A stretch of 46,332 bases of DNA from an uncultured Eubacteriales bacterium (lineage in GTDB: Bacteria; Bacillota; Clostridia; Peptostreptococcales; Anaerovoracaceae): contig CACYHR010000024.1 in the NCBI GenBank assembly GCA_902774265.1, positions 1,921 through 48,252 on the forward strand. Reading direction: 5' to 3'. Positions 18,521-20,055 of the stretch are shown here, one piece after another; the first letter of the stretch is position 1, and every line of letters starts with the position of its first letter. The position numbers and the translations under genes were made by a program. Below the pieces are notes generated by a model. The model was not told the origin of the DNA. It did no database searches and saw nothing but the letters and a program-made list of their open reading frames with translations.

Positions 18521-19453
18521 TTATGCGAACAACGCTGTCGATAGATATCTGTCTCCCGAATCAGGAAGGATAACAACTATATTCTTACCTTCGTTCTCCG
18601 GTCTTGCAGCAAGTATGGATGCAGCCTTGAGAGCAGCACCTGCCGAAATGCCTACAAGTATTCCTTCGGCAGCAGCAAATTTCCTGCCTTCTTTGAATGC
18701 ATCGTCATTTTCAATGGCGATTACTTCGTCATATACTGAGGTATCGAGGGTGTCAGGGACGAAGCCTGCTCCTATACCCTGTATCTTGTGTGAACCTGCC
18801 TCGCCTTTGGAGAGAACAGGACTCGTAGCAGGCTCGACTGCCACAACTTTGATGTCAGGATTTTTTTCCTTGAGATATTTTCCTGTTCCGCTGAGTGTGC
18901 CGCCTGTTCCTACGCCGGAAACCAGAATATCTACCTTGCCGTCTGTCTGTTCCCAGATTTCCGGACCTGTTGTATCGTAATGAGCAGCAGGATTCGATGG
19001 ATTGATAAACTGACCCAGTATAACCGATCCTTCGATCTCTTTGTTGAGCTCTTCGGCTTTTGCGATAGCACCCTTCATTCCCTTTGCACCTTCTGTAAGT
19101 ACAAGCTCTGCACCATATGCCTTAAGCATAGTCCTGCGTTCAACACTCATGGTATCAGGAAGTGTCAGTATCGCTCTGTAACCTCTTGCAGTCGCAACCG
19201 CTGCAAGACCTATACCCGTGTTGCCGCTTGTCGGTTCTATAATAGTAGCGCCTTCTTTGATGATGCCGGCTTTTTCCGCATCTTCTATCATTCTCAAAGC
19301 GATCCTGTCCTTTACAGATCCGGCCGGATTGAGATACTCTAGCTTGGCGAGAATAGCTGCACCTGTAATGCCGCTGACCTCACTGTATCTGTTCAGTCTG
19401 AGAATAGGTGTTTCGCCGATAAGTTCTGTCATACTGTTCTTGATATTTGCCAT
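18521..19453 (-). CDS. cysK: Cysteine synthase (O-acetylserine sulfhydrylase)
   Basis: 310 residues, normal length. It is a PLP enzyme joining sulfide to O-acetylserine to make cysteine. The PLP lysine is in PAGSVKDR (about residue 40), the substrate loop is TSGNTG, the phosphate-binding loop GTGGTLSGTG and the C-terminal PDSGDRY are all present. ATG 19453 is chosen because GGAGGT lies at 19461-19466; the 14-codon longer frame has no ribosome site. Upstream on the same strand are a simple-sequence leader and, further up, a cysteine-rich leader ORF with terminator and promoter, pointing to control by cysteine supply. Confidence 0.96.
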   Translation of the reverse strand: MANIKNSMTELIGETPILRLNRYSEVSGITGAAILAKLEYLNPAGSVKDRIALRMIEDAEKAGIIKEGATIIEPTSGNTGIGLAAVATARGYRAILTLPDTMSVERRTMLKAYGAELVLTEGAKGMKGAIAKAEELNKEIEGSVILGQFINPSNPAAHYDTTGPEIWEQTDGKVDILVSGVGTGGTLSGTGKYLKEKNPDIKVVAVEPATSPVLSKGEAGSHKIQGIGAGFVPDTLDTSVYDEVIAIENDDAFKEGRKFAAAEGILVGISAGAALKAASILAARPENEGKNIVVILPDSGDRYLSTALFA

Positions 19454-19510
19454 CGTATTTACCTCCATATCTAATACCCGTTGAATGAATTTCAAAAAGA
19501 ATATCTGTTC

Positions 19511-19573
19511 GCTGTTGTTACTGGTATTGTAATTGTAATTGTTATTGTTATTGGTATTGTTATTATAATGATT
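19511..19573 (-). repeat. Hexanucleotide-like simple repeat in the cysK leader
   Basis: On the transcript strand the leader is a run of AATAAC/AATTAC/AATACC units, about ten in a row, with almost no G. It would be single stranded. Repeat number could change by slippage. It sits about 60 bases upstream of the cysK ribosome site. Confidence 0.7.
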
Positions 19574-19782
19574 CTGTTGTGATTGTGTCTGCTATAGCAT
19601 TTTGATAAGCACGAGTGTAATAATATTACAAGAATTATAATATTATTATATTATCTTTGCCGATTTTGCAGGTTTTCCCATATCGCTTTGCGCTGATACA
19701 GCGGCTTGTTAACGAATAACAATTATGCGAAAATAGCACATGCTTTATGTAAAATAGTCCGCAACGCAATACGTAATGCAAT

Positions 19783-19816
19783 AAAAAATGAGAGGACTAC
19801 CTGCGGTGCCTCTCAT
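19783..19816 (-). terminator. Intrinsic terminator behind the cysteine leader ORF (attenuator candidate)
   Basis: On the transcript, ATGAGAGG (19816-19809) pairs with CCTCTCAT (19795-19788), then six U (19788-19783). The 5' half includes GAGGCACC (19812-19805), which is exactly complementary to GGTGCCTC inside the leader ORF (19861-19854). Forming that pair would break the terminator. This is the architecture of a leader-peptide attenuator. Confidence 0.75.
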
Positions 19817-19839
19817 ATCAAGGGAAGTGTTCTCAATTA

Positions 19840-19944
19840 TCATTGGATGTCCGGAGGCACCTGATCAGCAGCATGTAAACAGACATCCGGGAACACTCCC
19901 TTCATACAGATGCAGCAACACATGTCCGATACATAGATCCTCAT
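19840..19944 (-). CDS. Cysteine-rich leader peptide (34 residues), candidate cysteine attenuator
   Basis: ATG 19944 with a very good site GGAGGA (19956-19951), 6 bases away. The peptide has three consecutive Cys codons at 9-11, another at 13 and another at 22 (MCCCIC core), ending at TGA 19840-19842. Within the ORF GGATGTC (19888-19882) can pair with GACATCC (19851-19845), enclosing GGTGCCTC, which can alternatively pair with the terminator arm downstream. A strong promoter and a palindrome lie upstream, a terminator downstream, and cysK is the next gene on this strand, about 330 bases on. A regulatory role in cysteine sensing is inference; a functional metal-binding mini-protein is the alternative. 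The short length keeps it out of most gene lists. Confidence 0.75.
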   Translation of the reverse strand: MRIYVSDMCCCICMKGVFPDVCLHAADQVPPDIQ

Positions 19945-20006
19945 CAGGACTCCTCCTTTCTGGTATACTGACCCGGCCTTTATGTTTATTTATTCATCAA
20001 GGCTTA

Positions 20007-20055
20007 ATTCCTATCAACTAAGTAGGAATATACACCCTGGTGTGAAACTTGTCAA
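20007..20055 (-). promoter_or_regulatory. Strong promoter with overlapping palindromic operator for the cysteine leader
   Basis: On the minus strand TTGACA (20055-20050), 17 bases, then TATATT (20032-20027). Overlapping the -10 box and the expected start is the palindrome ATTCCTA-N9-TAGGAAT (20029-20007). From memory, arms containing TAGGAAT resemble the sites of CymR, the Rrf2-family cysteine regulator of Bacillota; this was not checked by search. Confidence 0.75.

Follow-up and report, generated by a model that had tools for sequence, protein, structure and literature searches.

A cysteine-codon leader upstream of cysK in an uncultured Eubacteriales bacterium: a probable ribosome-mediated transcription attenuator

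Organization of the cysK leader

The window, meaning the whole 46,332-nucleotide stretch of DNA that was analyzed, belongs to an uncultured Eubacteriales bacterium whose assembly comprises 3.26 Mb in 110 contigs and is 91% complete. It carries a cysK gene whose nearest named relative in the 80-locus set described below is found in a Mogibacterium sp. MAG (88%), which makes a Mogibacterium-like bacterium of the gut the most likely host. Matches resembling cysK were obtained in 98 of 99 genomes. A short leader precedes the gene. The parts of this region, in the order of transcription, are as follows:

20027..20055, minus strand: sigma-70-type promoter, TTGACA (20055-20050) and TATATT (20032-20027) with a 17-nt spacer, 11 of 12 matches
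20007..20029, no strand assigned: palindromic operator ATTCCTACTTAGTTGATAGGAAT over the -10 box and start region, from a palindrome search
19952..19959, minus strand: Shine-Dalgarno sequence AAAGGAGG, 7 nt 5' of the leader ATG (19944), from the sequence
19840..19944, minus strand: leader ORF of 34 codons, MRIYVSDMCCCICMKGVFPDVCLHAADQVPPDIQ, with Cys codons 9, 10, 11, 13 and 22, from the ORF list and the fixed rule given below
19906..19920, minus strand: Cys run TGT TGC TGC ATC TGT, which is Cys9, 10, 11 and 13, from the sequence
19891..19902, minus strand: segment A AAGGGAGTGTTC, a predicted protector whose partner is D, from folding
19880..19889, minus strand: segment B CGGATGTCTG, whose predicted partner is CGGACATCC, from folding
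19879..19881, minus strand: Cys22, the fifth Cys codon, from the sequence
19854..19861, minus strand: candidate antiterminator segment GGTGCCTC, complementary to the terminator 5' arm, from the duplex test (p=0.006) and the stall model
19845..19853, minus strand: CGGACATCC, predicted partner of segment B (protector hairpin B:C), from folding
19820..19832, minus strand: segment D GAACACTTCCCTT, predicted partner of A, from folding
19788..19816, minus strand: predicted intrinsic terminator hairpin, -13.0 kcal/mol, with its 5' arm GAGAGGCACC at 19805-19814, from folding
19779..19789, minus strand: T-rich tail of the terminator, from the sequence
18521..19453, minus strand: cysK (O-acetylserine sulfhydrylase), 310 aa, ATG at 19453, the presumed regulated gene, from the ORF and its homologues

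The sequence-only reading had described a 34-codon ORF with five Cys codons, three of them in a row, a very good ribosome site, a strong promoter with a TAGGAAT palindrome, and an intrinsic terminator, followed by cysK as the next gene. Each of these parts was located again, with the ORF at 19944-19840 on the minus strand, AAAGGAGG in front of its ATG, and ATTCCTACTTAGTTGATAGGAAT overlapping the -10 box. The terminator was missed by the simple terminator scan and was recovered by folding as a hairpin at 19816-19788 with a T-rich tail. The complementarity that had been claimed between part of the ORF and the terminator's 5' arm is exact, and pairs GGTGCCTC (19861-19854) with GAGGCACC inside the arm (19814-19805). 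The region from 19905 to 19772 has a folding energy with z=-3.6, and 0 of 200 shuffles were equally stable, while the entire 249-nt leader reaches only z=-1.5, with 15 of 200 shuffles equally stable. Judged by sequence, the elements of a ribosome-mediated attenuator, namely a leader ORF with a ribosome site, Cys codons, a terminator, and an antiterminator that excludes it, are all present.

The gap between the terminator and cysK (19454-19787) is 334 nt long here, compared to 21-167 nt in relatives with a clear terminator and only 85 nt in L004, the closest leader-bearing relative. The gap is A+T-rich and contains AACAAT-like repeats and two promoter-like sites (19663-19634 and 19591-19562), which could provide a bypass of the attenuator in this genome. 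A multi-copy insertion as the origin of the 250 extra bases before cysK was rejected because the host's own genome has no second copy; short partial matches only were found, in 6 other genomes of the 47 in the genus set. A second short ORF (19745-19843, minus strand) overlaps the leader stop codon (ATGA) and extends through the terminator, and is probably meaningless because L004 has several stops there. Finally, a CTCCCT core lies 3' of the leader stop in the other leaders of the window's type (L004 and L006-L010), and the window has CTTCCCTT. This core, which resembles an anti-Shine-Dalgarno sequence, is kept even where its supposed partner, segment A, is weak (L006 and L008), and it may have another role.

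Distribution and conservation of the Cys leaders

Up to 600 nt upstream of each of 150 cysK loci (sets of 30, 80 and 40) were searched with a fixed rule that called for an ORF of 8-60 aa with a start codon, an SD score no lower than 3, and three or more Cys in a stretch of 6 residues. The rule was satisfied at 42 of the 150 loci, which are not independent (L034/L009 and L033/L005 are identical genomes in two collections, L006, L007, L010 and some further pairs are near copies, and L149-L152 are distant cysK-like paralogues). Since the reverse strand gave 0 of 150 and dinucleotide shuffles gave a mean of 0.8 of 150, the Cys ORFs before cysK are not the product of chance. With a stricter SD score, 28 of 150 loci remained, compared to 0 on the reverse strand and 0.4 in shuffles. 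One further leader, that of L008, was added by eye.

The genus set consists of 47 genomes, of which 42 were covered at cysK and five are not included; a leader was found in 26 of the 42 genomes with a fetched cysK upstream region, with L132 excluded as doubtful because, although it satisfies the rule, nothing in its context supports it. Outside the genus, the 80-locus set contributed 13 leader loci (L034 excluded), and L144 came from the same family. Carriers include [Clostridium] aerotolerans DSM 5434 (L078), Lacrimispora amygdalina (L104), and L. algidixylanolytica (L107). When the rule was weakened to 2 Cys, the 107 leader-less loci yielded 3 matches, whereas shuffles gave 1.2 and the reverse strand none. 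One of the three, L114, clearly belongs to group B (described below) despite having two Cys, and the other two matches are a single peptide at two near-identical loci that looks unrelated. A search of the 47 genomes with the leader peptide, which is short and a poor probe, returned only two strong matches (E below 1e-10), both of them known leaders.

The leaders appear to be specific to cysK as far as we looked. Among the cysE loci of the genus, 2 of 30 had a leader, and both are known leaders of neighbouring cysK genes; among the cysS loci, 4 of 30 had matches, all of 10 aa, three of them TTG-started, and these are unconvincing. No Cys leader was found upstream of the host's own cysE-like gene. 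Cys leaders on cysE or cysS were rejected on the basis of these 30 + 30 genus loci and the own cysE-like gene. A cysE-family match adjoins cysK at G045:C22, G027:C27, G010:C12, and G046:C41, and for this reason the leaders of G045 and G027 probably control a cysK-cysE operon.

The operator was analyzed in the same collection. A looser pair of half-sites, CCTA...TAGGAA, is present in 42 of 150 cysK upstream regions, divided into 19 of the 42 with a leader and 23 of the 108 others, compared to 0.6 of 150 in shuffles. The host's own genome encodes three Rrf2 genes, one of which precedes genes that we take to be iscS-like and iscU-like, and TAGGAAT-type palindromes are assumed here to belong to Rrf2 proteins. 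The palindrome is therefore treated as probably the site of an Rrf2-type (CymR/IscR-like) repressor. If such a repressor alone controlled cysK and the leader and terminator contributed little, then the enrichment of the palindrome with or without a leader would be expected, as would its presence in the close relative L005/L033 (88%), which has no leader (the operator was seen in L005). However, such control would give no reason for the Cys ORFs and terminators or for the conservation of their complementarity, and repressor and attenuator layers can coexist. We regard control by the repressor alone as very unlikely, and cysK is probably under two layers, a repressor and an attenuator.

The strict palindrome occurs at 2 places in the host's own genome, and the second of these sits on the promoter of an RNA of about 150 nt that has its own terminator:

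L153:1330-1530 (G000:C5:80652-80852), minus strand: candidate small RNA, from folding and similarity

The host's own copy has a strong fold (z=-8.6, 0 of 200 shuffles), and the RNA was matched in 35 of the 47 genus genomes. The looser operator is present in 26 of 26 copies, and CCATAATACTTTCATCCCTCTT is identical in 26 of 26, a constancy that is partly selected because the copies (the own copy, 5 loci, and 20 regions) were found by similarity, many of them via CCATAATACTTTCATCCCTCTT itself. This stretch is predicted to be unpaired in the own copy, and the sequences of the flanking hairpin and terminator vary. An automatic consensus fold of the 26 copies was weak (-3.0 kcal/mol), and no match to Rfam was obtained at E 0.5. 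A target search with the conserved stretch gave 39 sites with at most 2 mismatches compared to 16 for the control, and at 0 mismatches it gave the small RNA's own gene only; CCATAATACTTTCATCCCTCTT could pair with ribosome-site and start regions. In 15 genomes (G002, G003, G004, G006, G008, G011, G013, G015, G017, G023, G024, G026, G033, G038, and G042), the small RNA is encoded on the cysK strand about 1.5-1.7 kb upstream of that gene, and in G044 the upstream distance is about 0.4 kb. Its features suggest a trans-acting small RNA that shares its regulator with cysK.

The leader peptides fall into several groups. Group A, the window's type (L003, L004, and L006-L010), has a Cys run or CxC followed by Met and, except in L009, a further Cys at codon 13-18 and another at codon 22. 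Group B consists of 18 leaders and the two-Cys L114, with the peptide CCCLMQSSRARCxxGVLS; group C consists of L022 and L024 (CCNCCC and CCICC); and others are of a Lachnospiraceae type, for example NNKCCCQAVCMESDTVLL. The groups share little beyond the Cys run, and the peptides range from 15 to 37 residues when L024 is counted from the nearer of its start codons. A scan of 6 leader peptides against Pfam and NCBIfam revealed no family, the sole NCBIfam line having E=0.59.

For the duplex test, in which the best pairing of the terminator 5' arm with the segment that follows the Cys run was compared with 500 shuffles, a terminator was assigned to 35 of 43 leaders (the 42 found by rule and L008); the terminator strings of L003, L030, L031, and L078 were picked by eye because the scan had missed or mis-set them. 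The window's duplex has p=0.006. In total, 24 of the 35 leaders reached p of 0.01 or less. Of these, 16 belong to group B and 8 to group A, with L009 counted a second time as L034, so that the duplex is significant in all group A leaders and in all tested group B leaders (16 of 18). The other 11 had p values from 0.014 to 0.78 and include L022, L024, L144, and all eight Lachnospiraceae-type leaders tested. In L116 and L126, which are outside the 35, a terminator-like hairpin is visible.

No convincing terminator could be assigned to five leaders of the Lachnospiraceae type (L041, L045, L065, L067, and L088), which stop 75-94 nt short of cysK and are possible translational attenuators. These five would fit a translational or Rho-type mechanism, in which ribosome stalling exposes the ribosome site of cysK or keeps Rho from acting, as has been proposed for the cys leaders of actinobacteria. 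The window, by contrast, has a strong intrinsic terminator, with the cysK ribosome site more than 300 nt downstream, and there is only a slim chance that such a mechanism operates there.

The pattern of conservation in groups A and B points to the RNA rather than to the peptide. The GGTGCCTC:GAGGCACC pairing is found in L003, L004, and L009. In L006, L007, and L010 it takes the intermediate form GGTGCTTC:GAGGCACC with a G-U pair, and L008 has the compensatory change GGGTGCTT:AAGCACCC, with both terminator arms altered to match. In L009, GGTGCCTC-N-GGACATCC is kept as in L003 and L004 and is read in phase 1 instead of phase 2, and an unchanged RNA segment therefore encodes a different peptide there. 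The group B antiterminator codons AGC TCC CGG are invariant down to their third positions in 16 of 18 leaders, and the codon that follows them varies (GCT, GCG, GCA, or ACG). Because the pairing survives in unrelated sequences, through a compensatory change, and through one frame shift, it is the RNA rather than the peptide that is conserved. The conservation test had been set beforehand, and the complementarity came through it, being kept while the peptide, the nucleotides, and the frame in L009 change; a conserved peptide would be expected to give the opposite pattern. A functional microprotein rich in Cys, one that binds metals or thiols for instance, and located before cysK by coincidence, would account for an ORF with a good ribosome site and for the well-conserved group B peptides, but the lack of shared sequence and length among the groups, the lack of a family match, the coincidence of the conserved group B codons with the pairing segment, and the frame change in L009 make this reading very unlikely and argue against a functional peptide as the main cause of conservation.

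Modelled switching and the proposed mechanism

Ribosome stalling was modelled in group B and in the window and other group A leaders; for the group A position scans the terminator strings were chosen by eye, in part for uniformity. The clearest switching was obtained in group B, where 14 of the 18 leaders were scored. In 11 of the 14, the predicted terminator probability was 0.00-0.04 with the ribosome stalled on the Cys run and 0.98-1.00 with the ribosome at the stop codon. The cases that were not clean are L124 (0.55-0.68 when stalled) and L128 (0.96-0.99); in L134, the terminator probability was 0.99 at the first Cys and 0.04 at the last. When no ribosome was included, the predicted terminator probability in group B spanned 0.01 to 1.00.

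For the window, all ribosome positions were scanned on a transcript ending before the terminator 3' arm. The antiterminator probability was 0.00 at codons 1-11, 0.01 at codon 12, 0.92 at Cys13, 0.96-1.00 at codons 14-24 (1.00 at Cys22), 0.71 at codon 25, and 0.00 from codon 26 to the stop. Only Cys13 and Cys22 are thus within the computed antitermination zone, and Cys9-11 are upstream of it, where a stall is predicted to leave the terminator active. Opening the antiterminator segment would cost 9.1 kcal/mol at Cys9, 5.2 at Cys10, and 3.3 at Cys11, and nothing at Cys13 or Cys22, since upstream stalls leave A:D and B:C paired and the antiterminator segment hidden. These values are for a 13-nt footprint, and the zone depends on its size: at 10 nt Cys13 drops out, Cys11 joins at 19 nt and Cys10 at 22 nt, and Cys9 does not join even then. 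The Cys codons of L007, L008, and L009 are offset like those of the window; support is weakest for L009, where Cys27 alone (0.62) falls within the zone. For L004, the values are just 0.32 at Cys13 and 1.00 at Cys22. The proposal in the sequence-only reading that a stall on the Cys codons leads to antitermination is therefore supported by the modelling most clearly in group B, and in the window for Cys13 and Cys22, but not for Cys9-11.

In the trp system, the switch is decided during transcription. The same would have to hold for group A because the finished terminator wins at equilibrium. Its equilibrium probability in the window was 0.95 at Cys13 and 0.76 at Cys22, and it was at least 0.97 at the Cys codons of the other four group A leaders scanned. 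In the equilibrium scan of the window, the terminator loses only at codons 1-2, 16-21, and 24. A group A switch would therefore be kinetic. Sections of PMC1183508 have already dealt with leaders whose control region promotes the antiterminator over only part of its length, and with the first and last codon at which stalling favours antitermination.

Taken together, our data indicate that the leader is very probably a ribosome-mediated transcription attenuator of the trp/his type through which cysK is controlled by the charging of tRNA-Cys. Behind RNA polymerase, a ribosome would begin to translate the leader ORF. With ample Cys-tRNA, the ribosome would reach the stop codon and cover GGTGCCTC, the terminator GAGAGGCACC...GTCCTCTC-U would form, and transcription would end before cysK. 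With scarce Cys-tRNA, the ribosome would be held in the Cys-coding part, and at Cys13 or Cys22 it would cover segment A (and B) and block the protector hairpins A:D and B:C. In this case GGTGCCTC could occupy the 5' arm of the terminator, which would then not form, and the polymerase would proceed into cysK. The most likely role of Cys9-11 is a delay by which the ribosome is timed against the polymerase, and the TAGGAAT operator over the promoter probably adds control by a repressor.

The history of the leaders was considered with a quick FastTree run on 145 cysK proteins (145 rows, 58 open branches), on which parsimony requires no fewer than 14 changes of the leader label, gains and losses counted together, compared to a mean of 34.7 when shuffled; 5 of the changes are forced by starred branches. 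There are at least three unrelated terminator types, GAGGCACC, GCCCGGGAGC, and ACGGGTATC, the last of which is without a significant antiterminator. Because the antiterminator sequences are unrelated, repeated origin or thorough rebuilding appears to be favoured. It is possible, and is put forward only tentatively, that the Cys attenuators of Clostridia arose or were rebuilt several times, replacing other cysK controls, and that the window's type also gives a peaked response. Such a response would result from two sensing zones, Cys9-11 outside and Cys13 and Cys22 inside the antitermination zone, with readthrough at moderate shortage and termination again at extreme starvation. Leaders with unrelated sequences are in any case natural variants for studying how such switches arise.

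Comparison with known control systems

The Rfam search at the cysK leader found neither a T-box (RF00230) nor any other match, and a T-box or other Rfam element there was rejected on this absence of a covariance-model match. Two T-box matches below the gathering score (L247 and L248) were found in the host's own genome, where they precede genes that we take to be thrS-like and trpB-like; the host appears to use T-boxes elsewhere and not at cysK. No T-box at gathering score was found in 20 leader-less cysK loci hand-picked from the 108. The sequence-only reading had held T-boxes to be the usual solution in Clostridia. For cysK this is true in part: as stated in portions of PMC2940859, cysteine T-boxes are present at cysK in some Clostridium species and not in others, several clostridia are without one, and their cysteine metabolism may be controlled in other ways. 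For these clostridia, an attenuator based on Cys codons offers a concrete and testable candidate. The cysKE T-box of Clostridium perfringens, as described in the same portions, is similar to the proposed attenuator in its gene, its signal (tRNA-Cys charging), and its premature termination, and differs in that it binds the tRNA directly and has no ORF, whereas the window leader has an ORF and no T-box (PMC2940859).

Among the matches listed in a search that covered open-licence PubMed Central, none describes a Cys leader peptide from Bacillota. Within that scope, the cysteine variant of ribosome-mediated attenuation is new for this phylum, and it would add cysteine to the amino acids that act through leader-peptide attenuation in Bacillota. 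Polycysteine leader ORFs of mycobacteria are reportedly the subject of Canestrari 2020. The mycobacterial leaderless ORFs have no ribosome site, in contrast to the window ORF with its strong SD. Runs of Cys codons upstream of cys genes are shared with the actinobacterial and mycobacterial polycysteine ORFs, in whose leaders, unlike that of the window, no conserved terminator hairpin was found, according to parts of PMC1262725; in excerpts of PMC13236596, the polycysteine leaders of M. smegmatis are assigned to translation attenuation. The uORFC-8-2 element of Rhodobacterales cysS likewise combines a uORF that contains tandem Cys codons with a downstream intrinsic terminator. It differs in its host (Alphaproteobacteria), its gene (cysteinyl-tRNA synthetase), and its two Cys codons (PMC8632094, in part), and the window leader departs from this description in both gene and host, since it precedes cysK in Clostridia, a class of Bacillota.

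The replacement of a T-box by a leader peptide is known from the hisS-family leader peptides of Firmicutes, according to parts of PMC2965389, in the main text of which cysK occurs 0 times; those leaders concern histidine in Bacillus, and the window leader concerns cysteine in Clostridia. The S. aureus ilv leader is a ribosome-mediated attenuator, as stated in a portion of PMC5794164. The window leader is similar to this leader and to the trp, his, and leu attenuators of E. coli in having an SD-led ORF rich in codons for the end product, alternative protector, antiterminator, and terminator structures, and a terminator before the biosynthetic gene. It is unlike them in its amino acid, cysteine, in its Clostridia host, and in the placement of its densest regulatory codons before the antitermination zone.
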